Source: Candidatus Schekmanbacteria bacterium (GTDB taxonomy: Bacteria; Schekmanbacteria; GWA2-38-11; J061). Taken from it: 64,000 nucleotides of DNA. A model generated the notes under the pieces. That model had not been told where the DNA came from and did no database searches. It saw only the letters and a list, made by a program, of their open reading frames with translations. The stretch covers positions 1 to 64,000 of the forward strand of contig JACRJM010000002.1 of the NCBI GenBank assembly GCA_016219965.1, in the 5' to 3' direction. Numbering within the stretch: the stretch's first letter is position 1; each line of letters begins with the position of its first letter. Position numbers and translations under genes: made by a program. Shown here piece after piece: positions 30,131 to 45,317 of the stretch.

Positions 30131-30179
30131 ATACGGCCTATCAGGATAACAAACCATTAAAATACTATTGGAGAAGAGA

Positions 30180-31007
30180 ATGAAGAAGTTTTTCATAATA
30201 GTTTCAGTTTTATTCATTTTCGCAGCAACAACAACTGTAAACTCCCATGCAGAGACACGTCTCCGAATGAGTACGACAACAAGCACTGAAAATTCCGGAC
30301 TGCTGCCGGTCATTATAACCCCCTTTGAGAAGGCTAATGATGTCAAAATAGATGTCATAGCCGTAGGGACAGGAGCAGCGCTGAAACTTGGCGAGAACGG
30401 AGATGTTGATCTGGTCTTTGTTCATTCGCGCCCTGATGAAGATAAATTCGTGGCTTCGGGTTTTGGTATTGACCGGCGCGATGTCATGCATAATGATTTT
30501 GTAATTCTGGGACCTAAAAATGATCCTGAAAATTTAAAAGGCGCAGGCTCAGCTCTCGAAGCTTTTAAAAGACTTGGTGCAGGGAAATGTGAGTTCATTT
30601 CACGCGGCGACAACTCAGGGACACACATAAAAGAAAAGGAATTGTGGAAGCTGGCAGGTGTTTCACCCTCAGGCAGTCCGCTTGCCAAATGGTATGTTGA
30701 GACAGGACAGGGAATGGGTGCCGTGCTTCAGATAGCAAATGACAAGCAGGCTTATACGCTTGCCGACCGGGGGACCTACATTGCCTATGAAAAGAAGGTT
30801 GACCTTGTAATTCTCTATGAAGGGGACAAGACCTTATACAATCCGTACGGCATCATTGCTGTTAACCCGGCTAAATTTCCACATGTAAAATATGACCTCG
30901 CGAAGAAGTTCATTGAATACATCACAAGCTCTGAAGGGCAGAAGATTATTGCTGATTTCAAAGTGAACGGCAAAGAACTTTTTTTCCCTGATGCGATTAA
31001 AAACTAA
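30180..31007 (+). CDS. tupA: Tungstate ABC transporter, periplasmic binding protein
   Basis: 275 aa from the ATG at 30180, preceded by GGAGAAG, with a cleavable signal peptide (about residues 1-24, ending NSHAE). The mature protein starts RLRMSTTTSTENSGLLPVI, the TupA signature whose T-T-S-T segment binds the oxyanion. It also contains VGTGAALKLGENGDVDLVFVH and the FISRGDNSGTH loop. TupA proteins bind tungstate with much higher affinity than molybdate. It is the first gene after the riboswitch terminator, and tupB and tupC follow beyond a small Ig-like gene. Confidence 0.93.
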   Translation: MKKFFIIVSVLFIFAATTTVNSHAETRLRMSTTTSTENSGLLPVIITPFEKANDVKIDVIAVGTGAALKLGENGDVDLVFVHSRPDEDKFVASGFGIDRRDVMHNDFVILGPKNDPENLKGAGSALEAFKRLGAGKCEFISRGDNSGTHIKEKELWKLAGVSPSGSPLAKWYVETGQGMGAVLQIANDKQAYTLADRGTYIAYEKKVDLVILYEGDKTLYNPYGIIAVNPAKFPHVKYDLAKKFIEYITSSEGQKIIADFKVNGKELFFPDAIKN

Positions 31008-31010
31008 GAA

Positions 31011-31502
31011 ATGAAAAATATATTTTTTATCATAATATTGGCGGCTAACATTGTTTTATTGTCTGCTTCCCTGCAAAATGCGGGATGGTGGGGAGACGAG
31101 GAAATAACTTTGGAGAAAGCATCTTTAAATGACGGCACAACGCTTCTCGTATCACCAAATCCGGACAATAACAGGAATGTTCTGGTCAACTCTACTATTA
31201 AGCTCGAATTCAGCAGGAAGATTACAGACACAACTGTCAGCATAATCACTAACCAGCCCAATAAAACGCTCTTTATATTGACAAAAGCACTGACAAAAGC
31301 CGGTGGTGCCGTTGTGCCTGTAACTGTTACGGCAAACAAATCTCCGGTAACCGTTAAACCTATCAGCGATTTAGAACCTCAAACGAAATATATCCTTACC
31401 GTCAAGGCAGGTATTACATCGAATAACAGAGCTTACTGGACTAAGACTGATATAGTCATAGCATTCACTACGAAAAGCCAGAAAGCGGAACAACATAAAT
31501 AA
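31011..31502 (+). CDS. Exported Ig-like (Big_5-type) protein within the tungstate operon
   Basis: 163 aa with an N-terminal signal or anchor helix (KNIFFIIILAANIVLL). One bacterial Ig-like domain follows, recognisable by VLVNSTIKLEFSRKITD, near the middle, and the closing DLEPQTKYILTVKAGI. Such 'Big_5' domains occur in many surface proteins. It starts 3 nt after the tupA stop and ends 82 nt before tupB, so it is transcribed with the transporter. It is not a known Tup component. It could be a periplasmic accessory or scaffold, or an incidental insertion. Confidence 0.65.
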   Translation: MKNIFFIIILAANIVLLSASLQNAGWWGDEEITLEKASLNDGTTLLVSPNPDNNRNVLVNSTIKLEFSRKITDTTVSIITNQPNKTLFILTKALTKAGGAVVPVTVTANKSPVTVKPISDLEPQTKYILTVKAGITSNNRAYWTKTDIVIAFTTKSQKAEQHK

Positions 31503-31584
31503 GCGATTAACAAAAGTTTTTCTGGCAAAAAGGCAGTAAAAAATATTCAGTGCAATTCTTTTAATCCTGTGTAAAACATTACAA

Positions 31585-32274
31585 ATGGACTATCTTATTG
31601 ATTCCTTCTACTCTGCTGGCGGACTCATCTTCGGTTTTGATCCAGAGGTTTATTTCATTGTCTGGACATCGGTGCGCATTTCGCTTATTGCCACCATTCT
31701 TGCCGCGGTTCTGGGAATTCCTCTGGGAGTATTGATTTCGCTTAACCGGTTTAGAGGTAAAGGCGCAGCAATCCTGATACTAAATACATTGATGGCGCTT
31801 CCTACAGTTGTCGTCGGGCTTTTCTTCTACGCACTTTTAAGCCGACGGGGGGTTTTGGGAGATTTTGGCCTACTTTACACCCCCTGGGGAGTGATAATCG
31901 GTGAGCTGTTCCTCGCTCTTCCTATTGTTGTAAATTACACCATCTCAGCAGTACAGGGAATAGACAAAAGGCTTCTTCTTACATGTAAATCACTTGGGGC
32001 ATCACCGGTCCAGGAGGCATCAATAATATTGAAAGAGGCAAGATTTGCAGTGATGGCTGCTGTAGTTGCAGGATTCGGAAGGATCATCGCAGAGGTCGGA
32101 GTTGCCATGATGCTTGGTGGTAACATAAGGGGTTTCACCCGCACCATGACAACAGCAATTGCGCTTGAAACAAGCAAGGGGGAGTTTGAGCTTGGGCTTG
32201 CTCTCGGCATACTTCTGCTCGCTGTAGCCTTTGCCGTAAATGGCGCGCTTTATAAGATTCAGAAGGGGAAATAA
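31585..32274 (+). CDS. tupB: Tungstate ABC transporter permease
   Basis: 229-aa inner-membrane permease with about five to six helices. The cytoplasmic coupling loop shows the EAA-type motif LTCKSLGASPVQEASIILKEAR with a following G-F-G-R-I-I-A-E-V-G segment, characteristic of TupB/ModB permeases. It would dimerise to form the tungstate channel and couple to TupC. No strong ribosome binding site is visible upstream. It is separated from tupC by 21 nt. Confidence 0.9.
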   Translation: MDYLIDSFYSAGGLIFGFDPEVYFIVWTSVRISLIATILAAVLGIPLGVLISLNRFRGKGAAILILNTLMALPTVVVGLFFYALLSRRGVLGDFGLLYTPWGVIIGELFLALPIVVNYTISAVQGIDKRLLLTCKSLGASPVQEASIILKEARFAVMAAVVAGFGRIIAEVGVAMMLGGNIRGFTRTMTTAIALETSKGEFELGLALGILLLAVAFAVNGALYKIQKGK

Positions 32275-32295
32275 AGTGAAAATGAAGAGAAAATA

Positions 32296-33291
32296 ATGAG
32301 CATTGCATACAGACTGGAAAACATTTCTTTCGGATATGGTTCGCGCACTGTACTTAATATCCCTGAGCTTGAAATTGAAGCAGGAAGAATCACTGCACTT
32401 GTCGGCCCCAATGGCTCAGGCAAGACTACTCTTTTAAATATGCTTTCTTTTATCGAGATTCCGGGAAAAGGAGAGATTTCCTTTTTCAACGAGAAGGTGA
32501 AAGACGGGGATGTACTTGCCTTTCGCAGGCGAGTGGGACTTCTGCTTCAAAATCCATATCTCTTCCATTCCTCTGTGATATCTAATGTAGAGGCAGGGCT
32601 TAAGATCCGGGGGATATCTCCCCATGAAAGGCACAGCATATCTGCGGATGCACTGGCAAAAGTCGGACTTTTCGGTTTCGAGGGGAGAAAGGCGACATCT
32701 CTTTCAGGAGGCGAGGCGCAGAGGGTTGCCCTTGCACGGGTGCTTGCCCTTCAACCTCAGGTCATATTACTCGATGAGCCGGCAACCTATATGGATGCAG
32801 AAAGTGAAAGACGCACGGAAGAGGTTATCCTTGAGCTTAACAGGGAGAAGGGCGTTACAGTTATATTTACGACACAGGATATTCTGCGTGCACAGGCTCT
32901 CGCAGACAGGGTGCTCAGCATCTTCAGGGGAAGCATTGTCTCAGCATCGCTTGTAAATCTTTTCCGCGGGAAAGTCTCTGAAGACGGAAAACAATTCCAT
33001 ACAGAGAAAATTGTCATTTTTATTTCCGGCGGGAGCGGCAACGAAACTCATATCTCTGTTGACCCTTCTGATATAGTTCTTTCCAAAGAATCACTCCATT
33101 CAAGCATGAGAAACTCTTTCAAGGGGCGGATAGTCGCGATTTTCGAAGAGAATGGAAAGGTGCGCATCGAAGTTGAAGCAGGAGAACGCTTCCAGTCCCT
33201 TATCACGCGCGACTCTCTAAAAGAAATGGGTCTTCATATCGGCGACGATGTCTGGCTCTCCTTCAAGTCAACTGCCGTGAAGGTGTTTTAG
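32296..33291 (+). CDS. tupC: Tungstate ABC transporter ATP-binding protein with C-terminal oxyanion-binding domain
   Basis: 331-aa ATPase. Walker A is GPNGSGKTT (~residue 36), the ABC signature LSGGEAQRVALARV (~134), and Walker B VILLDEPATYMD (~155). After the ATPase core (to ~220), the C-terminal 100 residues include RNSFKGRIVAIFEENGKVRIEV and the following ITRDSLKEMGLHIGDDVW. These form a TOBE/Mop-type domain that in ModC binds molybdate or tungstate and can trans-inhibit transport. So the operon may be regulated twice: by the cofactor riboswitch and by substrate binding to this domain. Confidence 0.9.
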   Translation: MSIAYRLENISFGYGSRTVLNIPELEIEAGRITALVGPNGSGKTTLLNMLSFIEIPGKGEISFFNEKVKDGDVLAFRRRVGLLLQNPYLFHSSVISNVEAGLKIRGISPHERHSISADALAKVGLFGFEGRKATSLSGGEAQRVALARVLALQPQVILLDEPATYMDAESERRTEEVILELNREKGVTVIFTTQDILRAQALADRVLSIFRGSIVSASLVNLFRGKVSEDGKQFHTEKIVIFISGGSGNETHISVDPSDIVLSKESLHSSMRNSFKGRIVAIFEENGKVRIEVEAGERFQSLITRDSLKEMGLHIGDDVWLSFKSTAVKVF

Positions 33292-34281: not shown

Positions 34282-35316
34282 TTATTCCAATTGTTTTTTA
34301 AGTTCTTCTTTGCTCGGAAGGTATAGCTGGTACTGCCGGGCAAAAATATGCTCATTATCCTCGGGCAAGGTGAATTCAACAACTGCCTTCTTAGCTTCTT
34401 TGCATAAAATTATTCCAATGGTGCTGTTTTCATCCGGGCATTTCATCATGCGGTCATAGTAGTTCACATACATTTGCATCTGCCCTATATCCTGATGCTT
34501 TAGTTTCCCTATTTTCAAGTCTATTAGAACAAAACACTTTAGCAGGCGATTATAAAACACAAGGTCCACAAAGAAGTGTTCTTCATCAAATGTAAAGCGC
34601 TTCTGTCTGCCTACGAAGAGAAAACCTTTTCCAAGCTCAAGGAGAAAGTGCTCGATCTTATTGATAATAGCTGTTTCAAGATCGCTTTCCGTATAGCTGG
34701 CGTCTTCTTTCAATCCGAGAAATTCCAGTACATAAGGTTCTTTGATTGCATCCTGCGGGGTCGTTAGGACATGCCCTTTTTGACTTAATTCTTTCACTCG
34801 GTGTTTATCACGGCTAAGTGCAAGCCGTTCATAAAGAGATGAATTAAACTGACGTTCAAGTTCCCGGAGTGACCAGTTTTGTTTTGCAGCTTCTATCTCA
34901 TAAAAACTACGTTCTGCATCAGAAAGCCTTATGAGAAAGACATAATGAGACCAGCTCAGAGGAAAGGTTGTCTGAGAAATACGCGACGCTGTCTCGGATT
35001 TCGCAGACATTGTCTGCGAAATTTTTGCGGAGTATAGCAGGAAGAACTTCCGCATGTTTTCAAGGTTTCTCTCGGAATAGCCCTTGCCGAATTCTTTTGT
35101 CAGATCAAGACTCAGGTTTTTCAAAGTTTCCTCGGCATAGCCCGCCCGCTTTTTCCCCTGCTGCTCATCTACCACGATCATCCTGCCTATTTCAAAATAG
35201 GTCATCACCATAGCAGTGTTGATGTTCCTTGCTACAGCATTTCTCGCTTCGCGCAGGAGAGTTTTTATATTTTCAAATAATTTTTGATGCGATAGTTTCT
35301 TTTCTATTTTATCCAT
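34282..35316 (-). CDS. DUF1016 (YhcG-type) PDDEXK nuclease-fold protein, second copy
   Basis: 344 aa; AAGGA lies about 10 nt upstream of the ATG on the minus strand. The N-terminal DUF1016 domain shows MVMTYFEIGRMIV and SERNLENMRKFFLLY. The C-terminal nuclease-like domain shows HFFVDLVFYNRLL with VLIDLKIG (D...DxK) and GIILCKEAKKAVVEF. Between them, residues ~112-130 hold a short internal repeat, ISQTMSAKSE then SRISQT. It is clearly related in domain plan to the protein at 26932 but differs at most positions, so it is an old paralogue or a separate acquisition rather than a recent copy. It stands alone. Confidence 0.85.
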   Translation of the reverse strand: MDKIEKKLSHQKLFENIKTLLREARNAVARNINTAMVMTYFEIGRMIVVDEQQGKKRAGYAEETLKNLSLDLTKEFGKGYSERNLENMRKFFLLYSAKISQTMSAKSETASRISQTTFPLSWSHYVFLIRLSDAERSFYEIEAAKQNWSLRELERQFNSSLYERLALSRDKHRVKELSQKGHVLTTPQDAIKEPYVLEFLGLKEDASYTESDLETAIINKIEHFLLELGKGFLFVGRQKRFTFDEEHFFVDLVFYNRLLKCFVLIDLKIGKLKHQDIGQMQMYVNYYDRMMKCPDENSTIGIILCKEAKKAVVEFTLPEDNEHIFARQYQLYLPSKEELKKQLE

Positions 35317-35521: not shown

Positions 35522-35809
35522 TTGAAAAAGAAAGAGAAAAAAAGCTTGAATGGTGTGCCTGTAACCCTTGATTTTAAAAGCAATGAGGATTTTCGCAGGG
35601 AAAGGCCAAGCGTTGACAGGGATAAATGCATAAAGTGCGGAGTCTGTTATCTTTACTGCCCTGACAGCGCAATCAGAAGTGTTGACGAAGGATACTTCGA
35701 GGCAGACCTTGAACTTTGCAAAGGGTGCAGTCTCTGCAAAAAGCAGTGCGTCACAGGCTGTATCTCCATGCTTCCCGAAACATTACCTTTAAGGCATCCG
35801 CTCTACTGA
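35522..35809 (+). CDS. PorD-like 2x[4Fe-4S] ferredoxin subunit
   Basis: 95 aa from the TTG at 35522, chosen because GAGGGAG lies 7 nt upstream. The frame is open 57 nt further 5' but without a binding site. It has two cluster motifs: CIKCGVCYLYCPDSAI and CKGCSLCKKQC. The first is typical of the delta subunit of pyruvate (2-oxoacid):ferredoxin oxidoreductase. The second motif ends in CVTGC rather than the usual CP, a mild deviation. It leads a seven-gene operon and is followed 1 nt later by a PorB-like gene. PorA and PorC subunits are missing from the operon. Confidence 0.82.
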   Translation: MKKKEKKSLNGVPVTLDFKSNEDFRRERPSVDRDKCIKCGVCYLYCPDSAIRSVDEGYFEADLELCKGCSLCKKQCVTGCISMLPETLPLRHPLY

Positions 35810-35810
35810 T

Positions 35811-36683
35811 ATGGAAAAATTTTCTGTCTATGTACCTAAGCTCCTGCCAAAGCAGGAGAATTTTATTGTCGGCAGACGTTCCTGCCGGGGATGCGGCAAG
35901 GCTCTGGCAATAAGATTTGCCGCAAAGGCAATGGCTGAATGCGGGGCATTGATAAAGACTGATAATAAACCGCAGGCAACCGGCTATGCATGGGATGATA
36001 TGGAGTTCCCGTCTCTCGTTGGCTCAGTTGTAAACAGCGTAAGAAAGAGCGTTAAAGGCTCATCTTATAAAAAACCAGCCATAGCGATAGACATGAAAGC
36101 ATTTGACGGCAGCCTTGTTGCATTGCAGTCAATGCTTGAAAAGGCTGAAGATATCCTTGTCATCCTCTATGACAATGAAAAATATATGGACACCATAATA
36201 ATGGAGACCAAGCCTCTCCCGTTTGGTATTGAATATCATCATCATGCGCCGGGAGCCAGGGAAGTGCGATTCGCCCTTGAATCGCGCAACCTCTTTAATT
36301 TTGCAGAAAAGTTATCACTCTCTTATGCGGCTTCTTCATCAATTGCATATCCATTCGATCTTGTTGATAAAGTAAAAAGAGGACTCAAAATAAAAGGGAC
36401 AGCAGTTGTCCATGTGAATTCACCATGCCCCACAGGCTGGATGTTTGCACCAGCCGACACCGTGAAGCTCGGCGCACTTGCAGTTGAATCAGGGTTTAAT
36501 CCGGTTTGGGAATATAAAGATGAAAAATTTGCGCTTAACATGGCGGCAAGAAAATCTGAATCAGTCAAAGAATATGTAAGGGCGCAGAAAAGATACAGAT
36601 ATATGAGCGATGCCTTCATAGAAACTTTAAATGAAGCTGTCAGCATTGAGTTTGAAAAGCTTCAAAAACTTTGCGGGAAATAA
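35811..36683 (+). CDS. PorB-like protein with degenerate thiamine-diphosphate site
   Basis: 290 aa, similar in length and plan to the beta subunit of pyruvate:ferredoxin oxidoreductase. The cysteines of the proximal 4Fe-4S cluster are retained: SCRGCGKAL (C25, C28), C44, and SPCPTGW (C206). The thiamine-diphosphate motif is not: where PorB has G-D-G-G, this protein has I93-D94-M95-K96 (in AIDMKAFDGS). The later D-N-E-x-Y-M-N-T-G reads DNEKYMDTI. The substrate-decarboxylating function is therefore probably lost while an electron-carrying cluster could remain. No PorA gene is nearby. This reading rests on manual alignment to family consensus. Confidence 0.75.
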   Translation: MEKFSVYVPKLLPKQENFIVGRRSCRGCGKALAIRFAAKAMAECGALIKTDNKPQATGYAWDDMEFPSLVGSVVNSVRKSVKGSSYKKPAIAIDMKAFDGSLVALQSMLEKAEDILVILYDNEKYMDTIIMETKPLPFGIEYHHHAPGAREVRFALESRNLFNFAEKLSLSYAASSSIAYPFDLVDKVKRGLKIKGTAVVHVNSPCPTGWMFAPADTVKLGALAVESGFNPVWEYKDEKFALNMAARKSESVKEYVRAQKRYRYMSDAFIETLNEAVSIEFEKLQKLCGK

Positions 36684-36684
36684 A

Positions 36685-37146
36685 ATGCAGGAAGTTGATA
36701 TAATAATAGATAAAGTCGTTGAAAGACATAAGGGGAAGGATAACGCACTTATCCCTATGCTCCATGAAATACAGGGAGAATTTAATTATCTTCCCCGCGA
36801 AGCGCTGGATTATCTTTCAGCGAAGATAAGCGTTCCTGTTTCAAAGATATTTTCCGTGGCAACATTTTATAAAGCATTCAGCCTTGAGCCAAGAGGCAAG
36901 ACAAAGATTGACGTCTGCATGGGCACTGCCTGTTACGTCAAGAATTCCGAGAACCTTCTCAATCGTTTTGCAGGTGAGTTAAAACTGGACGGGGAAGGTA
37001 CTACATCTGACCTTGCCTTTACTCTTTCACAGGTGCGCTGTCTTGGCTGCTGCAGCCTTGCTCCGGTGGTGAATATAAACGGGAAAGTCTACGGGAATCT
37101 AAGCTCTGATAAAGTTAAACAATTGACCGAGCAGTACAAGGCTTGA
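36685..37146 (+). CDS. NuoE-like 2Fe-2S thioredoxin-fold subunit
   Basis: 153 aa from the ATG at 36685; the frame continues upstream only inside the previous gene. It is the 24-kDa (NuoE/HydC/HndA) type subunit. A helical N-terminus with ALIPMLHEIQGEFNYLP and ATFYKAFSLEPRGK leads to the four cluster ligands in CMGTACYV and CLGCCSLAP. In NADH dehydrogenases and bifurcating hydrogenases it holds the N1a 2Fe-2S cluster near the FMN site of NuoF. The start lies one base after the preceding stop, and the NuoF-like gene begins 2 nt after its own stop. Confidence 0.92.
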   Translation: MQEVDIIIDKVVERHKGKDNALIPMLHEIQGEFNYLPREALDYLSAKISVPVSKIFSVATFYKAFSLEPRGKTKIDVCMGTACYVKNSENLLNRFAGELKLDGEGTTSDLAFTLSQVRCLGCCSLAPVVNINGKVYGNLSSDKVKQLTEQYKA

Positions 37147-37148
37147 AT

Positions 37149-39041
37149 ATGGTTAAGGTAAAAGGGAAAAGGGAACTTGATAAGCTGGGAAAAGAAGGAA
37201 TCGCTTCCCTTTATCCTAAAAATATAAAAATCACTGTTGGAGTTGCTTCCTGCGGACTTGCCTCAGGCGCTGCCGCTGTCTTTGATGCATTCAATGAGAA
37301 GATTTCAAAAAAAGACGGCGTTATTTTAAGTCATGCGGGCTGTGTCGGGATGTGCCACAATGAGCCTGTAGTTGAAGTCCAGATGCCGGGTATCGGCAGG
37401 ATGACCTACGGGAAGGTGACTCCTGCTGATGTTGATAAGATAGTTGAATCAGTAAAATCAGGGAAAGTTCCTCCAAAATTTCTTTCATCGGTTAACGTTG
37501 ATCTCTTTCCTTTGACCGGTGAGAAGAAACAGATCTCCGGCAAGAAATCCCAGGCTGTAAAGGCGAAGCCTCTCCGCTTCTATAATAAGCAGAAGAGAGT
37601 TGCCATGAGAAACTGCGGGGTGATAAATCCTGAAAGCCTCGAAGAGTATATAGCGCGCGGCGGATACTATGCACTCTTAAATGCGCTTTCCAATAAATCC
37701 CCTGAAGCTGTAATAGATGAGATAGACAAATCCGGTCTTCGCGGGCGCGGCGGCGCAGGATTTCCGACAGGACGCAAATGGAACGTTGCAAGAGCTGCGG
37801 CAGGAAAGACAAAATACATAGTCTGCAATGCCGACGAGGGAGACCCGGGTGCATACATGGACAGGGCGATCCTTGAAGGAGACCCTCATTCAGTAATCGA
37901 AGGGATGATAATCGCAGCCTATGCCATTGGTTCATCAAAAGGATATATTTATGTCCGTTCTGAATATCCGCTTGCAGTATTGAGGCTTGAAAAAGCACTC
38001 ATGCTGGCAAGGAAAGCAGGGATTCTCGGGAAATCAGTGATGGGGAAGAAATTCTCTTTTGATATAGAGATTTATCAGGGAGCAGGCGCTTTTGTCTGCG
38101 GCGAGGAAACAGCGCTGATTAAATCAATAGAAGGAACATGGGGGGAACCTCAGGGACGTCCTCCGTATCCGGCAGTGAGCGGATTGTTCGGCTGTCCCAC
38201 TGTGATTAACAATGTTGAGACGCTTGCCAATGTATCTGCCGTGATGTTCAAAGGCGCAAAATGGTATTCTTCAATCGGTTGCAAGGAAAGCAAGGGGACA
38301 AAGGTTTTCTCCCTTGTTGGAAAAGTAAAAAATGTTGGACTCGTCGAAGTTCCGATGGGGACAACTCTTAAAGAAATAATATATGACATAGGCGGCGGCG
38401 TAAGCGGCAAAGGGAAAGCAAAGGCTGTCCAGACCGGAGGCCCTTCAGGCGGCTGTATACCTGCAAGTCTTTTCAAGCTTCCCGTTGATTATGTGGAACT
38501 CTATCGCGCAGGCTCCATAATGGGGTCGGGCGGCATGGTTGTCATGGACGATGCAACGTGCATGGTTGACGTAGCAAAGTATTTCCTCACGTTCCTTGAA
38601 GATGAGTCCTGCGGCAAGTGTGTTCCATGCAGGGTTGGGGTCAGAAAAATGCGCGAGATAGTTGAAGACATATCAAAAGGAAAAGGAAGGGAAGGAGACA
38701 TTGCACTTTTAGAAGAAATGGCAGGTGCCATAAAAGACGGCTCATTCTGCAATTTCGGGGCGACATCGCCAAATCCTGTTCTTTCCACGATACGTTATTT
38801 CAGGGATGAATACGAAGCGCACATCAATAATAAAAAATGCCCGGCCGGGGTTTGCTCTGAGCTTATTGAGTTCACCGTGATAAAAGAGAAATGCATAAGC
38901 TGCAGCAAATGCAAAAAGGCCTGCCCTGCCGACGCAGTGTGGGGAGCGGTGGGCTCCAAGTACAAGATCGTAAAAGATAAATGCATAAAGTGCAGGGCTT
39001 GCATTGAAGTCTGTCCTGTAGAAGCTATAGAGGTTAAGTGA
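37149..39041 (+). CDS. NuoF/HndC-like NADH-binding flavoprotein subunit
   Basis: 630 aa from the ATG at 37149. Domain order: an N-terminal thioredoxin-like 2Fe-2S domain (~1-110, with cysteines in ASCGLASG and AGCVGMC), then the FMN/NADH domain with GLRGRGGAGFPTGRKW (~198). The SLBB domain comes next, followed by the 4Fe-4S motif SCGKCVPCRVG (~485). Last is a C-terminal double ferredoxin with CISCSKCKKACP and CIKCRACIEVCP. This enlarged form is typical of HndC/HydB subunits of NAD(P)-linked bifurcating hydrogenases and of related complexes, rather than of respiratory complex I. It is the probable NAD(H) site of the operon's complex. Confidence 0.92.
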   Translation: MVKVKGKRELDKLGKEGIASLYPKNIKITVGVASCGLASGAAAVFDAFNEKISKKDGVILSHAGCVGMCHNEPVVEVQMPGIGRMTYGKVTPADVDKIVESVKSGKVPPKFLSSVNVDLFPLTGEKKQISGKKSQAVKAKPLRFYNKQKRVAMRNCGVINPESLEEYIARGGYYALLNALSNKSPEAVIDEIDKSGLRGRGGAGFPTGRKWNVARAAAGKTKYIVCNADEGDPGAYMDRAILEGDPHSVIEGMIIAAYAIGSSKGYIYVRSEYPLAVLRLEKALMLARKAGILGKSVMGKKFSFDIEIYQGAGAFVCGEETALIKSIEGTWGEPQGRPPYPAVSGLFGCPTVINNVETLANVSAVMFKGAKWYSSIGCKESKGTKVFSLVGKVKNVGLVEVPMGTTLKEIIYDIGGGVSGKGKAKAVQTGGPSGGCIPASLFKLPVDYVELYRAGSIMGSGGMVVMDDATCMVDVAKYFLTFLEDESCGKCVPCRVGVRKMREIVEDISKGKGREGDIALLEEMAGAIKDGSFCNFGATSPNPVLSTIRYFRDEYEAHINNKKCPAGVCSELIEFTVIKEKCISCSKCKKACPADAVWGAVGSKYKIVKDKCIKCRACIEVCPVEAIEVK

Positions 39042-39044
39042 TAT

Positions 39045-39806
39045 ATGCCAAAGATAAAAATAAACGGCAAAGAGGTTGAGGTAAAAGAAGGAAGCACAAT
39101 CCTCGATGTTGCAAAAAGCGAGGGGATTGACATTCCAACACTTTGCCACCACGAGGCATTAAAGCCATACGGCGGATGCCGCCTCTGCGTTGTTGAGGCA
39201 GGTGACGGGAATTCATCGAGAGTTGTTTCATCATGCCAGTATGTTGTGCACGATGGACTTAATGTCCAGACGGAGACTCCTCGGGTACAGTCAGTAAGAA
39301 AGCTTGTAATAGGGCTTCTTCTTATTGATGCAAGCGATATCCCCGCAGTTAAGGAAAAGGCCGAGGAACTTGGAGTAAAGAGAAACACAAGGTTTGTCCC
39401 TGACAATGAGCCTTGCATACTCTGTGGCAGATGTATAAGGGCATGCAGGGAGATAGTCGGAGTCTCGGCGATAGATTATGCGGGACGCGGTTACGGCAGA
39501 AAGGTTGCGGCTCCATACTTTAAAAAATCAGAAGCCTGTATCGGCTGCGGCACATGCTTTTATGTATGTCCTACGGGAGCGGTAGTGATGCATGAAGTTC
39601 CCGAAGGAGCGAAGATGAAAGTGCCGGAAGGAGATGAGATAACAGGACCTGCGAGGATAATGGAAAACTGGAAAGCAGGATTTAATATGCAGATTTGCAA
39701 GAAGTGCGGAAGGACTGTTGAGCCTTCAGGTGTTGCTGCCCATATAAACAAGACAGCCGGCAAAGACAAGCCTGTTGAAGATATTTGTTTTATGTGCAGA
39801 GAGTAA
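39045..39806 (+). CDS. NuoG/HndD N-terminal-like iron-sulfur subunit (no H-cluster domain)
   Basis: 253 aa. A plant-type 2Fe-2S domain (CHHEALKPYGGCRLC plus a later VVSSCQ) is followed by two 4Fe-4S motifs (CILCGRCIRAC and CIGCGTCFYVCP). The His/Cys3 cluster of NuoG and HydA (H-x3-C-x2-C-x5-C) would fall in LLLIDASDIPAVKEKAEE, which has no cysteine, so that cluster is absent. There is no hydrogenase H-cluster domain or molybdopterin domain. The last 40 residues hold an extra CKKCG...CFMC pair, perhaps a zinc site. It is a wire-type subunit linking NuoF-like chemistry to the partners downstream. Confidence 0.86.
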   Translation: MPKIKINGKEVEVKEGSTILDVAKSEGIDIPTLCHHEALKPYGGCRLCVVEAGDGNSSRVVSSCQYVVHDGLNVQTETPRVQSVRKLVIGLLLIDASDIPAVKEKAEELGVKRNTRFVPDNEPCILCGRCIRACREIVGVSAIDYAGRGYGRKVAAPYFKKSEACIGCGTCFYVCPTGAVVMHEVPEGAKMKVPEGDEITGPARIMENWKAGFNMQICKKCGRTVEPSGVAAHINKTAGKDKPVEDICFMCRE

Positions 39807-39831
39807 AAAGGAAAGAGAGGTTAGAAAATAA

Positions 39832-40107
39832 ATGAGAATTGACAGAGCGGTTTGCGTAGGCTGCGGAGGATGCGTCAATCAGTGCCCCAGGCTTGCGATC
39901 AGGTTTATAGACAATAAGTCATATATCGATCAGATGGCATGCGTCGAATGCGGAACGTGCAGGGCTGTTTGCGGTGTTGATGCCATATACAGCGACTGCC
40001 GTTTTACGGATATTGTGGTCATGAATTACGAGAGCAATCCTTTCTGTGATGACATCGAGGATTTCTTCGAGGTTGATATTAATTTCGTTTCTGAAAAAGA
40101 ACATTGA
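39832..40107 (+). CDS. 2x[4Fe-4S] ferredoxin
   Basis: 91 aa with two cluster motifs, CVGCGGCVNQCPRLAI and CVECGTCRAVCGVDAI. In the second, the usual Pro after the last Cys is replaced by Gly. The acidic C-terminal tail (ending DDIEDFFEVDINFVSEKEH) may serve docking. The ATG lies 25 nt after the NuoG-like stop, with GAGAGG upstream. It sits directly before the flavoprotein gene and probably delivers electrons to it, as small ferredoxins beside FixC-like or geranylgeranyl-reductase-like proteins are thought to do. Confidence 0.85.
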   Translation: MRIDRAVCVGCGGCVNQCPRLAIRFIDNKSYIDQMACVECGTCRAVCGVDAIYSDCRFTDIVVMNYESNPFCDDIEDFFEVDINFVSEKEH

Positions 40108-40110
40108 TCT

Positions 40111-41427
40111 ATGATTAAAAACAAATACGACATGGTTGTTGTGGGCGCAGGGCCCGGCGGATTAATGGCTGCAAAGACTGCGGCAGAAGATGGATTATCA
40201 GTGCTTCTTCTCGACATGAAACGTGACATTCCGCGCGTTGACCGCTCATGCTGTACCATGCTTATCAATGAGCCGAGCACTCATGGCGAGAACTGCTCCA
40301 TCGTTAACAACAACATCAAGTACGAAAAGCTCGGATTAGAGGTAAAATACAAAGGGCAATGGGCAAAGCTCGAGCAGTCTATAAGGATCGCTCCTAACGG
40401 AAAAAAGATTGTTATTGCCAATCCCGGCGGAGTTTCCATAGCTTATAATAAAGAAGTCCTCCTTGACGGACTCCTTACAGAAGCCATTGCTCTTGGAGTG
40501 GATGTATTGCCTGAGACATTCGTGCTTCGCGCAGAGAATATAAAAAAGGATGAGGCCCGTGTATTCTTCAGAGGATGCCATTCAAGGGCTATCAAAGAAG
40601 TCCGCGCCAAGACAGTGATTGCAGCAGACGGCGTAAACTCCCAGATAGTTATGGGCCTTGAGATGGCCAAAGCAAGAAAGTTCTATGTCACATTCCATGT
40701 TGGTTCCTATTTTCTTGCAGGGACAAAGATTCCATTCCCGCCTTCTTTCATAACATTCATCGGCAAGGGTCATACTCCTGAGGGAGGTGGACAGCTTTAT
40801 CTGCTTTATAAACACCTTCGCGACGCAAAGCCCGGAGACGAGCCTATCGTTGACATTATGTTTGCCTCGACCATTGGCGGCTCGACAAAGAGAAGACTTG
40901 ATTGGTTTATGAAGAACGGGCCATTCAAGCATTGGTTTGAGGGCTCAGAGGTTGTCCACACTGCGGCTGCAACATTGAATTTCTATACCTGTCTTGTTCC
41001 TCCTGTTGAGGGGAATATAATTGCAGTTGGAGATTCGGCATCATTTATCGAGACCTACTGCCAGGGTGCCATGATGTATGGCTACAAGGCGGCAAAGGCT
41101 GCGGCAAAGCATCAGTCAACAGGCTGCGGCTATGATGAATATTCAAAATTCTGGTATGACACATTCGAATACTGCTGGCCCGGAGAGATAGACAAAGCCT
41201 TAAAGGGTTATGCAATCGGTGCACTTGGCAACGATGAAGTCAACTATCTTTTCTCGCTTACGGATAATGAAGTATACGATGGCTATGTGAGCGAGAACAC
41301 TGCGCCTGCCGTAATGAAGAACGCAATCATGTCGAAGATGGACCAGATAAAAAGAGAACGCCCCGACATTGCCGAGAAACTCCTCACCTACTACGGCAAG
41401 GCTAAGGTCGAAGAAGTAGTGGATTAA
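40111..41427 (+). CDS. FAD-dependent oxidoreductase, geranylgeranyl-reductase/FixC-like
   Basis: 438 aa. The Rossmann site is VVVGAGPGGLMAAKTAAE at the N-terminus. A second FAD motif, VIAADGVNSQI, lies at ~172, and a third, IIAVGDSASFIETYCQGA, at ~311; this is the layout of the geranylgeranyl reductase (GGR) family, which includes lipid-reducing GGRs and the FixC branch. Cys-rich SCCTML (~46) is unusual. The C-terminal ~110 residues are helical. It starts 3 nt after the ferredoxin stop and ends the operon. It is the likely terminal catalytic flavoprotein, reducing an unknown substrate (isoprenoid, quinone or enoyl compound) or taking part in flavin-based bifurcation. Confidence 0.82.
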   Translation: MIKNKYDMVVVGAGPGGLMAAKTAAEDGLSVLLLDMKRDIPRVDRSCCTMLINEPSTHGENCSIVNNNIKYEKLGLEVKYKGQWAKLEQSIRIAPNGKKIVIANPGGVSIAYNKEVLLDGLLTEAIALGVDVLPETFVLRAENIKKDEARVFFRGCHSRAIKEVRAKTVIAADGVNSQIVMGLEMAKARKFYVTFHVGSYFLAGTKIPFPPSFITFIGKGHTPEGGGQLYLLYKHLRDAKPGDEPIVDIMFASTIGGSTKRRLDWFMKNGPFKHWFEGSEVVHTAAATLNFYTCLVPPVEGNIIAVGDSASFIETYCQGAMMYGYKAAKAAAKHQSTGCGYDEYSKFWYDTFEYCWPGEIDKALKGYAIGALGNDEVNYLFSLTDNEVYDGYVSENTAPAVMKNAIMSKMDQIKRERPDIAEKLLTYYGKAKVEEVVD

Positions 41428-43358
41428 TTCTTCTGTTTCTTGCTGAGTTCCAGAATCTGAATATCTGCATCATTTGATATAGCAAATATTTTGCCGTCGG
41501 CACCAAAATCAAAGAAGAAACTATTCCTTGTATTAAAGGAATCAGTGCATTTGGGATATTTTGGATTGCCGAAGTCTATAATGTCGAGGTAAGAACTATA
41601 ATTTCCATGGTCTTTGTAATAGGAAATATAGAGATTGTTGTCTAATGACTTGATACACCTAACAATTAAGTTATTTCCGATTTTGTATTCGCCAATCTTT
41701 TTTGGCTTTGAAGGTTTGCTCACATCTATAACAGTAATAGCGCTATATTTTTTCCCCCTATGAGCATCACTATCCGAAATCTCAAATAGGTATTGAATAA
41801 ACGCTTTTTCTCCAAAAACAATGAGGTTTTCAATTTCTCTGTTAGGAGGTAAAGAATAGGTTCCAAGCAGCTTGGGTTTTGAAGGATTACCAATATCTAC
41901 AATTTGCATCTTGTTTAATGAACAAGCATAAGCTTTATTGCCTGTTGCAAAAAGTTTAACTATTTCTACGTCAGTTTCAAAGGAACTAAGCAATGCTGGA
42001 GAAGAAGGATTTGAATAATCTATTATATCAAATCCCGAAGGCCATTTTGGCACATATGCTTTGTGGTCAGAAATAAATAAACCTCTTGTTTCATTATCCT
42101 CAAATGAACTTAAAAGTGTTGGTGTTAAAGGATTGCTTACATCTATTGCAACAAGAGTATCAGTCCAATTTTCATTATCATAATTTATTCCATAAATTAT
42201 ATTGTCTGATATGGAAATATTATCAATATAACTGTTTACATCCGCAGCATATTTCCCAATTGTTGAAGTATTAGCAGGATTTGAAACATCCATTATGGTT
42301 ATTCCGTCACCATTGTTAAAATAAATAAACGGTTCTGATACACATATCATATATGGACTTTCTGGTGCATTGTAAGTGCCTAAAAGTTGCGGTGTTGAAG
42401 GATCAGATATATTTATTATGTCAAGCTTGCCATTATTGAAGTTATCACCATAAGTGCTAACAATGTATGCTGTACTTTCTGAAACTGAAAAACCGGACTG
42501 CGAACTATTGTTCTCATATGTACCAAGACATGTCGGTGCGATGGGATCGGTAATATCTAGTATTTGAAGTGCATTTGAAGTTTGTAAATATATTTTATTT
42601 TCTGATAATTGAATTTTTCTTATGAAATCTGCGTAGTAAGTATTAATTGAGTAGATATAAGAAAGATCTGATAAATCTGATATCAACAATTCATCCTCAG
42701 TAACTATATATGCTATATCATTCGAAACTATAAGTCCCTTAAAAGAAAGATAAGTTTCGTGGTATTTACTTTTTAATTTTGGTTTTCCCAAATTGCTTAC
42801 ATCAACAATTTGAAGCCCTTTTTTACCATCGGCGACATATACGGTATTTTCCACTACATATAACCCAAGAGCATTAAAGGTTTTGTAAGAACTTATAAGC
42901 TTTGGCGCTTCCGGAGTAGTTACATCAATTATCTTAATCCCGGCTTTTCCTGTGGCAATATAGGCTGTGTTGCCATCAACGAAAACATCCTTTGCATAAC
43001 CGGATATTTTGAGTGAGCCTAGTAATTGCGGTGACGAAGGAGCGCTGATATCAACAATCACAAGACCTTTGCTGTTTGCTGCGATGTACGCTTTGTCGCC
43101 TGCTATAAAAACTGCTTTTGCTTTATCCTGAGTCGGAAATGTTGTAATCAGCTCCGGAGATGATGAGTCCGACACATCAAAAATCGAAAGCCCGTTTATC
43201 CCTGCCACATAGGCGTAATTGCCGGAGACCTTGATGTCATAGAACTCGCCGCCGTAACTGCCAATGAGCTTAAGCTCCTGCGCGCTTGATTTAAAAGTGA
43301 GAAGGAAAGGAATAAAAAACAACAGAAAGATAAGTTTTTTAAATTGCATGGACTGCAT
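41424..43358 (-). CDS. Exported LVIVD-repeat beta-propeller protein
   Basis: 644 aa with a signal peptide (about residues 1-27, ending KSSAQ), then at least a dozen ~40-residue LVIVD repeats. A typical unit reads AYVAGINGLSIFDVSDSSSP, and repeats recur as 'V-x-G-N-x-A-Y-V-A-x-x-x-x-G-L-x-I-I-D-V-(S/T)-x-P-x-x-P'. They are expected to fold as beta-propellers. LVIVD proteins are surface or periplasmic and poorly understood. The 3' end overlaps the end of the convergent flavoprotein gene by 4 nt. A paralogue lies just upstream at 43404-45317; their first ~60 mature residues are nearly the same, showing tandem duplication. MQFKK at codon 4 is an alternative start. Confidence 0.85.
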   Translation of the reverse strand: MQSMQFKKLIFLLFFIPFLLTFKSSAQELKLIGSYGGEFYDIKVSGNYAYVAGINGLSIFDVSDSSSPELITTFPTQDKAKAVFIAGDKAYIAANSKGLVIVDISAPSSPQLLGSLKISGYAKDVFVDGNTAYIATGKAGIKIIDVTTPEAPKLISSYKTFNALGLYVVENTVYVADGKKGLQIVDVSNLGKPKLKSKYHETYLSFKGLIVSNDIAYIVTEDELLISDLSDLSYIYSINTYYADFIRKIQLSENKIYLQTSNALQILDITDPIAPTCLGTYENNSSQSGFSVSESTAYIVSTYGDNFNNGKLDIINISDPSTPQLLGTYNAPESPYMICVSEPFIYFNNGDGITIMDVSNPANTSTIGKYAADVNSYIDNISISDNIIYGINYDNENWTDTLVAIDVSNPLTPTLLSSFEDNETRGLFISDHKAYVPKWPSGFDIIDYSNPSSPALLSSFETDVEIVKLFATGNKAYACSLNKMQIVDIGNPSKPKLLGTYSLPPNREIENLIVFGEKAFIQYLFEISDSDAHRGKKYSAITVIDVSKPSKPKKIGEYKIGNNLIVRCIKSLDNNLYISYYKDHGNYSSYLDIIDFGNPKYPKCTDSFNTRNSFFFDFGADGKIFAISNDADIQILELSKKQKN

Positions 43359-43403
43359 TATAGAAAAAGATATTTATTTGTAAATATATTTAATGCTGAT
43401 GTT

Positions 43404-45317
43404 TTATTCTATTATCTGCAATCCTGCTTCTTTAGTAGCAACGTAGACTTTATTTCCACTCAAACAAATTTCACTTGGAATACTTAGCAAATCAAAGGTG
43501 GTAGTTTTTTTGGCGGATGATGGATCGTTGAAATTTATGACTGCAAGGCGGGGTTTTTTCGTTCCCGATTTATTGTAAAATGCAACATAGGCTTTACTGC
43601 CGGTAATCCTAAAATCAGAAACTATTATATTTTTCCCAATCTTATATTTGCCAAGGGTTTTTGGGGATGACGGACTGCTTACATCTACTACTTTAATGTA
43701 GCTATTGGTGGATTTCCCGCCTGCGGATTTCTTATACAGCAAATATACATATTCATCGCTTTCTGAAAAACGTATCTGCTGGACATCTTCATTCTTAGAT
43801 AATTCATAAGAGCCAAGTGATTGAGGCGCAGATGGATCGCTTATATCGAGGATTATAAATCCATTTACCTTAAAAGGCGTAGTTAAATTATATGCAATGT
43901 AAGCTGTGTCTCCGGATACGGCAATCCCTCCTGCAGATCCACTGTCTTCATATGTTCCGGAAAGTTCCGGGGATGTGCGGTAGGTAACATCAATAATGCT
44001 GAGGTCAGTTTTGTCAGAAGTTATGAAAGCATTATCATCCGATATTGCAAAGCCCCCGAAAGAGTTTATGCCGTCGATACGATATGTGTTTAAAGTCTCA
44101 GGAGACTCCGGATTAGTCACGTCAATTGTCACAAGATCAACTTTGTATTTTTTTGATTCCTTGTACCGCTTCAGGGCATAAACAGTGTTTATTGAAACGA
44201 AGAACTCGCTTTTATAATCACCTGAAAGAGAGCCAAGCTTTGATGCTTTTGCAGAATCTGTAACATCCAGAATTGTGAGCCCTTTGTTTTTTACATTTAT
44301 ATATGCCGTGTCACCTGACACAACGACGTGATTTATTTCATTATCTGCCTTGTATGAGCCCTGCAACTCAGGGTTTGAAGTATCTGTTGTGTCTATTATT
44401 TTAAGTGCAGAGTTCTTGTAAACAATATATGCTTTACCGCTTGAAGCATAAACTCCTGAAGGTGTGGAATTTTCATCATAAGAGTCAGCAAGGGCAGGCA
44501 CAGAGGGATCGGTAACATCGACAATCATCAGCCCGTTCCCATTTAGCACAATATAGGCTGTATTCCCATTAACATAAATCTTTCTGGGAGAGCCGGATAA
44601 TTCGGAGACAGAAAGTAACACAGGTGAAGAAGGATCTGAAACATCAACAATGGTGAGATAATCTCCGGTGTCGGTAATAAAGGCAGTGTCACCGGAAACA
44701 AATATGTCGTACGCAGATTTAACTGATGTGACATAGGAGATTAATACAGGATTATCTTTTGCACTTACATCGATGATCATAAGCCCTGATTTTCCATCTG
44801 CAACATAAGCAGTGCTGCCTGACACATAAACGCTGTTTGCATCGGTTGTATCTATTGAACCAATGGTTTCCGGTGATGAAGTGTCTGTTACGTCAATTAT
44901 TATAAGCCCTGATTTTCCTGCGGCTATGTATGCGGTTTTTCCCGAGACAAAGACACCATTGGCATAGCCCGGTGTTATTAACTGTGAGAGATAAGACGGC
45001 GTTGCCGGATCACTTACATCGGCGATTAAAAGACCGGCTTTCCCTGCTGCAATATAGGCAATGCCGCCGGAAACAGAAACTCTCTCTGCCTTGTCCGGTG
45101 TGGATAGCACATAGAGAAACTCAGGCGCGGACTCGTCTGATACATCAAAAATGGAAAGCCCGTTTATCCCGACAGCATAGGCATGGCTGCCGTTTACTTT
45201 GACATCGTAGAACTCTCCGCCATAACTTCCAACAAGTGAAAGCGCTGCATTGCTCTGTGCGGCAGCAAACAGGAACAAGATGAAAAGTGACAGAAAGACA
45301 AGTTTTCTAAATTTCAT
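43404..45317 (-). CDS. Exported LVIVD-repeat beta-propeller protein, tandem paralogue
   Basis: 637 aa with an N-terminal signal peptide (LVFLSLFILFLFAAAQS, cleavage near NAA). It is followed along its length by LVIVD repeats such as AYAVGINGLSIFDVSDESAP and ADGKSGLMIIDVSAKDNPV. The mature N-terminus (LVGSYGGEFYDVKVNGSHAY) is almost the same as in the gene at 41424, and the C-terminal repeats also align, so the pair arose by duplication. The mature proteins are diverging: this copy is more regular in its repeats. The start codon is 45 nt upstream of the other paralogue's 5' side, and the two could share a transcript. Function unknown. Confidence 0.85.
   Translation of the reverse strand: MKFRKLVFLSLFILFLFAAAQSNAALSLVGSYGGEFYDVKVNGSHAYAVGINGLSIFDVSDESAPEFLYVLSTPDKAERVSVSGGIAYIAAGKAGLLIADVSDPATPSYLSQLITPGYANGVFVSGKTAYIAAGKSGLIIIDVTDTSSPETIGSIDTTDANSVYVSGSTAYVADGKSGLMIIDVSAKDNPVLISYVTSVKSAYDIFVSGDTAFITDTGDYLTIVDVSDPSSPVLLSVSELSGSPRKIYVNGNTAYIVLNGNGLMIVDVTDPSVPALADSYDENSTPSGVYASSGKAYIVYKNSALKIIDTTDTSNPELQGSYKADNEINHVVVSGDTAYINVKNKGLTILDVTDSAKASKLGSLSGDYKSEFFVSINTVYALKRYKESKKYKVDLVTIDVTNPESPETLNTYRIDGINSFGGFAISDDNAFITSDKTDLSIIDVTYRTSPELSGTYEDSGSAGGIAVSGDTAYIAYNLTTPFKVNGFIILDISDPSAPQSLGSYELSKNEDVQQIRFSESDEYVYLLYKKSAGGKSTNSYIKVVDVSSPSSPKTLGKYKIGKNIIVSDFRITGSKAYVAFYNKSGTKKPRLAVINFNDPSSAKKTTTFDLLSIPSEICLSGNKVYVATKEAGLQIIE

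Follow-up and report, generated by a model that had tools for sequence, protein, structure and literature searches.

The window analysed here, a stretch of 64,000 nucleotides from a Candidatus Schekmanbacteria genome (contig JACRJM010000002.1), carries on its forward strand an operon of seven open reading frames (ORFs) at 35522-41427, with intergenic gaps or overlaps of ~1-25 bp and with opposite-strand genes on either side (34282-35316 and 41424-43358). Judged by their sequences, its NuoE/F/G-like genes are not complex I but form a HydABC-type module, BfuABC, in which the ligands known from the bifurcation core are present. We see an even chance that the operon is one functional unit, which we term GGR-Bfu: a complex that would confurcate electrons from NADH and ferredoxin and use a dead PorBD pair as a wire to a ferredoxin and to an alkene reductase of the geranylgeranyl reductase (GGR) type. 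More tentatively, we propose the full scheme of an alkene or prenyl reductase that confurcates NADH and reduced ferredoxin, with the dead Por pair as its wire and a related short form that does not bifurcate and is tied to genes for menaquinone. The cluster suggests an undescribed anaerobic route that reduces lipid-like double bonds.

In the proposed mechanism, BfuBC would take electrons from NADH at the FMN and from reduced ferredoxin at its C-terminal clusters, and would confurcate them through the Bfu FMN/B2/C1 site, with the reverse reaction (bifurcation) possible. BfuA would hand on the mid-potential electrons. PorD and a PorB homologue that lacks the thiamine-diphosphate (TPP) motif, here called PorB*, would be remnants of a 2-oxoacid oxidoreductase that has lost 2-oxoacid oxidation and now serves as an iron-sulfur wire and a set of docking subunits. 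The operon ferredoxin would then reduce the FAD of the GGR-type flavoprotein, which may in turn reduce C=C bonds in a lipid; an isoprenoid, for example a quinone tail or a polyprenol, is the likeliest candidate. We infer the formation of the complex, the electron path, its direction and the substrate from family assignments, ligand sets, motif losses and a conserved gene order that can be read directly from the genomes.

The Bfu module and the direction of electron flow

BfuB, the HydB-type NuoF of the operon (37149-39041, +), matches hidden Markov models (HMMs) for an N-terminal 2Fe-2S domain, Complex1_51K, NADH_4Fe-4S and a C-terminal 2x[4Fe-4S] domain. Its closest solved relatives (9bov_B, 7q4v_B, 7t2r_B, 8oh5_B and 9n5u_B at the top) are HydB, NfnB and like chains of bifurcating or transhydrogenase complexes. 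Besides the FMN domain, the protein has complete ligand sets for B1, B3, B4 and B5, and the B2 ligands C438/H525/C531/C536 of the NiFe-Bfu chain 7t2r_B align with C471/H558/C564/C569 of the window. The B2 histidine is near-universal in BfuB and missing from non-bifurcating HydB homologues (PMC9304861). The complete B1-B5 ligands, which the same paper associates with bifurcating members, argue for a bifurcating or confurcating core, much as the initial annotation had cautiously proposed. At the variable fifth B2 position (C476), the window has Ser, genomes G001 and G002 have Thr, and G390, G391 and G397 have Cys; roughly two thirds of sequences carry Thr there (PMC9304861).

The genes for BfuC and BfuA adjoin that of BfuB as genes 3 and 5 of the operon. 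BfuC (36685-37146, +) is a NuoE-like, thioredoxin-like [2Fe-2S] subunit (PF01257) whose top relatives in the PDB are HydC-type subunits of bifurcating enzymes; its start is taken as the ATG one base past the PorB* stop, since a longer alternative ORF from 36631 would overlap the PorB* gene. BfuA (39045-39806, +; 253 aa) corresponds to the N-terminus of NuoG/HydA (Pfam Fer2_4 and Fer4; top PDB match 9mqx_A) and has the cysteines to bind one 2Fe-2S cluster and a pair of 4Fe-4S clusters, a C-terminal four-cysteine element and no catalytic domain, a cysteine pattern common to the BfuA of Por-Bfu complexes. An H-cluster domain was not found in BfuA by Pfam and NCBIfam HMMs or by PDB comparison, in keeping with the initial annotation's view that this is no hydrogenase. 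That it is not complex I either is supported by the absence of membrane-arm subunits among the seven genes and by a separate NuoF of complex I length (425 aa) on contig C17 of the host genome.

With its cluster cysteines and without a catalytic domain, BfuA fits Bfu Type 2, which combines a BfuBC core bearing B1-B5/C1 ligands with a BfuA of this kind and extra subunits for a third substrate (PMC9304861). In the operon, the third-substrate subunit would be the GGR-type flavoprotein, which lies outside the types described in that paper. The idea of a new NAD(H)/ferredoxin complex is supported overall by the sequence tests but not for its NuoE/F/G part, as the core of GGR-Bfu is a member of the published Bfu (HydABC) family.

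The same complex might also run in reverse: a mid-potential donor would reduce the GGR-type FAD, and the Bfu core would bifurcate the electrons between NAD+ and ferredoxin. Bfu enzymes can work in both directions, and in several of them the third substrate is the one oxidised (PMC9304861), but GGR-family proteins are known as reductases and the cluster flanks have no catabolic gene in common; we regard this direction as unlikely.

Conservation of the cluster and its short-type relatives

The initial annotation held that its proposal would fall if the gene order were not conserved in relatives. The order of the seven genes is identical in six other genomes from two groups (G001, G002, G389, G390, G391 and G397), a recurrence greater than chance that, with differing flanks, counts for one functional unit. 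It also favours the suggestion that electrons may be fed to the flavoprotein. The assignment of the genes themselves (PorD, a PorB-like protein, NuoE/F/G, a ferredoxin and a GGR-type flavoprotein) agrees with the ORFs and HMM matches.

The host genome (3.58 Mb, 98% complete) belongs to a sparsely sampled order. Both G001, from the window's family, and G002, from its order, have the complete cluster in differing flanks, with identities to the window of 80 and 70% for GGR, ~68 and 63% for BfuB and ~49 and 44% for PorB*; of the subunits compared, GGR shows strong conservation across the order. A scan of genome contigs gave a single relative, a distant GGR in Deltaproteobacteria bacterium GLR311, which led to a second group of deltaproteobacterial metagenome-assembled genomes with complete clusters in G389, G390, G391 and G397. 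The contig of G400 begins within NuoF and carries NuoF-NuoG-Fdx-GGR, and the BfuB of G389 terminates ahead of B3/B4. GGRs of the operon type are rare: around the window, 3 of the 386 sampled genomes have one (E<=1e-60), and around GLR311, 11 of 395 do (E<=1e-110), the latter count taking in a group of second-tier paralogs. In viral contigs the flavoprotein matches were all weak, and PorB was not found.

Two systems might instead share one operon. In that case a soluble BfuABC, together with PorBD, would keep NADH and ferredoxin in balance, and the ferredoxin it makes would serve a separate ferredoxin-GGR pair. This division would suit G401, where PorD-PorB*-Fdx-GGR occurs without NuoEFG, and archaeal GGRs do function with a separate ferredoxin. 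However, Bfu requires a third substrate, for which no other candidate is encoded in the operon, PorBD remains with GGR in G401, and the 2[4Fe-4S] ferredoxin (39832-40107, +; Fer4 domains, with cluster cysteines kept in homologous clusters) holds a fixed position between BfuA and GGR across the two groups. We find this arrangement improbable.

When BfuB sequences are placed in a tree that takes complex I NuoF as its outgroup, those linked to PorB* form a clade with 96/96 support, apart from the Por-Bfu group, which counts for the GGR-Bfu reading. The Por-Bfu sequences group with Hdr-linked BfuBs, so the tree alone gives no demonstration that the PorB* clade descends from Por-Bfu. At two loci, L154 and L155, NuoEFG-type genes lie beside apparent heterodisulfide-reductase-like genes, and their BfuBs group with Por-Bfu.

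Inside the PorB* clade is a short type, with a PorB* of ~240 aa from which the TPP region is deleted; all of its BfuBs lack B3/B4 and most also lack B2, and such loss of bifurcation ligands is the state of non-bifurcating homologues (PMC9304861). In this tree the long-type BfuBs are not one clade, as the copies of G389 and of locus L156 fall among the short ones. GGR ends four short-type clusters (L126, L152, L157 and L158). In G397 and G401, the short-type cluster is close to a gene for a UbiD-family menaquinone decarboxylase (TIGR03701, scoring above its cut-off), which adjoins an MqnP-like UbiA. In G391 a similar mqnL/mqnP-like pair, assigned from sequence similarity together with a UbiA match, lies ~8-11 kb away. 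The retention of GGR by these non-bifurcating relatives, near menaquinone genes, argues for the GGR-Bfu reading, and we treat the mqn linkage as a lead to saturation of the menaquinone tail.

A second short group (L151, L153 and L159) has no GGR or NuoG nearby and is arranged PorD-PorB*short-NuoE-NuoF; L159 adjoins a ketopantoate-reductase-type gene, and a similar-looking gene occurs at L151. Downstream of several long-type clusters, similar-looking proteins with Tat-like N-termini are encoded at L123 6684-9829, L120 13415-16729, L119 12861-14228 and L198 4346-5688, and the one copy searched had no Pfam match. L123 and L120 also encode a larger protein downstream, of which the L123 copy is a weak ferrochelatase match. 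In L199, a large cluster (G399:C7:38000-52202), PorD-PorB*-NuoEFG is followed by two GlcD-like FAD oxidases around a CCG-domain protein, then by Fdx-GGR and a second NuoEFG set, while L156 (G390:C130:6000-13828) has three GGR-like genes and a MarR-like gene, then PorD, a divergent PorB* and NuoEFG.

The GGR-type flavoprotein and its substrate

The last gene of the operon (40111-41427, +) encodes a FAD flavoprotein of the GG-red superfamily. In a profile search its best PDB match was the archaeal GGR 3oz2 (2.6e-21), over most of its length, and Cys47, which is catalytic in the superfamily, is invariant in the operon GGRs; both argue for a GGR-type reductase. Foldseek with an AlphaFold model also placed 3oz2 first, but the model is weak (pLDDT, the predicted local confidence score, of 49) and the match (TM score 0.35-0.39) is given no weight. 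AlphaFold inputs were the window and L064 sequences only.

The archaeal GGR of Methanosarcina acetivorans likewise has a neighbouring ferredoxin gene (PMC10821996) and keeps Cys47; the operon GGR differs in being bacterial, in lacking the PxxYxWxFP motif and in its coupling to Bfu and PorBD genes. Archaeal GGRs are reported to require a neighbouring ferredoxin or dithionite, which fits a supply of low-potential electrons.

Several points weigh against the GGR-Bfu reading. Its flavoprotein scores 85.8 bits against TIGR02032, for which the cut-off is 158.8, and in place of the archaeal cavity motif PxxYxWxFP the aligned region reads IPFPPSFITFIGK; the substrate may therefore not be an isoprenoid. 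The menaquinone linkage is confined to the short type in three related genomes and is unseen in the window's order. The G401 cluster has no Bfu genes, so other donors may serve the GGR part, although cysteines are missing from the PorD of that cluster. On thermodynamic grounds, alkenes might be reduced with NADH as the sole donor, and confurcation may not be needed.

As to other substrates, a bacterial GGR homologue is required for sterol C-24 reduction (PMC12004948), so other lipids are possible. GGGPS (PF01884) was not found in nine cluster-bearing genomes, with positive controls, and archaeal-type ether lipids of the membrane are for that reason unlikely as the substrate.

The flavoprotein could also be a FixC-like quinone oxidoreductase, the complex then tying NADH and ferredoxin to menaquinone redox chemistry rather than to tail saturation. 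FixC belongs to the same flavoprotein superfamily and pairs with the ferredoxin-like FixX, and short-type clusters lie near mqn genes. The FixC match (7koe_C), however, is restricted to profile residues 1-35, the N-terminal FAD motif, whereas that to 3oz2 spans most of the length, and no ETF genes were found by a Pfam search of the seven operon proteins. EtfABCX/FixABCX resemble the operon in joining a FAD protein of this broad superfamily to a ferredoxin-like partner and a bifurcating module, but the module here is Bfu rather than ETF and the flavoprotein is nearer to GGR than to FixC. We hold the FixC-like alternative to be distinctly improbable.

The host genome encodes seven further GGR-like paralogs (L002-L008; contigs C3, C4, C7, C10 and C15), 28-38% identical to the operon copy, with neighbours that include aldehyde ferredoxin oxidoreductase (AOR), MFS-like transporters and fumarate reductase/fumarase-like genes. 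A UbiA-family match in the same genome (C3:496717-497395) spans two frames, which points to either a frameshift or a misassembly.

The Por remnant, known systems and neighbouring genes

PorD (35522-35809, +; TTG start assumed) matches TIGR02179 PorD_KorD with 70.8 bits against a cut-off of 60.05 and has the full set of eight cluster cysteines. PorB* (35811-36683, +) has no Pfam match and scores ~150 bits against NCBIfam PorB models, far under their cut-offs; its PDB matches are 5c4i_C and 9bt4_C. A PorB homologue is present, as the initial annotation read it, but a degenerate one: IDM stands in place of the GDG motif for TPP, and three of the four cluster cysteines are kept, the third being lost. 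An AlphaFold model from the single sequence was too weak to use (pLDDT 34).

Among the 28 PorBs compared, each of the 14 encoded beside a PorA retains GDG and the full four cysteines of the cluster, and each of the 14 without one has lost GDG and the third cysteine while keeping the first, second and fourth; a branch with 98/98 support divides the two sets. Seven PorA-less PorBs found later also lack GDG, and one of them has Ser at the second cysteine. PorA and PorC are missing from the operon, as the initial annotation stated, and from all long-type clusters. Several genomes contain PorC-PorD-PorA-PorB-NuoE-NuoF-NuoG clusters, in some cases together with PorA-less ones. Absence of PorA tied to loss of GDG and a cysteine in 28/28 PorBs argues for the GGR-Bfu reading with its dead PorB, and reading frames that stay intact across divergent genomes suggest that PorB* is maintained. 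The operon's PorB is probably no working PorB, and with PorB degenerate the Por part probably conducts electrons rather than forming half an enzyme; the kept cysteines and the intact PorD point to PorB* as a putative carrier of electrons.

Joint loss of the TPP motif and PorA also favours the view that this is not a pyruvate oxidoreductase. That PorB* might still be a subunit of a 2-oxoacid oxidoreductase, borrowing a PorA encoded elsewhere, is hardly credible: the host genome does encode PorA proteins and the window PorB* retains Asp94 and the YDNE segment, but GDG is lost in every PorB*, the short type deletes the whole region, and each of the three PorA-like genes adjoins its own PorB. An orphan PorA in the host genome was considered and rejected, as the third PorA match sits in a PorA-PorB-PorC-like set in an apparent tricarboxylic acid cycle cluster.

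Full Por-Bfu (PorCDAB + BfuABC) has been predicted for Dehalococcoides and syntrophic Proteobacteria (PMC9304861), and in the literature searched, which mostly excluded subscription journals, the term is confined to a single paper. The operon shares with it PorD and PorB homologues directly ahead of NuoE-NuoF-NuoG; it differs in lacking PorA/PorC and the TPP motif, in its added ferredoxin and GGR, and in a BfuB of another clade. The Bam-Bfu class II benzoyl-CoA reductase complex also has a BfuABC module that supplies a further reductase (PMC9304861), but the operon has no tungsten or HdrA subunits and has a GGR-type flavoprotein instead. Within the same range of literature, nothing was found that joins Bfu/HydABC with GGR. 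If our reading is true, the cluster would widen the Bfu family by a further class of third substrate and would supply a dedicated electron donor for GGR-type reductases, whose natural donor is often unknown; the disappearance of PorA along with the TPP motif, with the ligand losses in the short relatives, would form a readable series in the rewiring of a modular redox complex.

Beyond the operon, two adjacent similar genes lie on the reverse strand of the window (41424-45317), the first of which (41424-43358) matches LVIVD beta-propeller repeats. Upstream (30168-33291, +) are apparent tungstate-type ABC transporter genes (binding protein, permease and ATPase); the AOR gene on host contig C3 would fit tungsten use.

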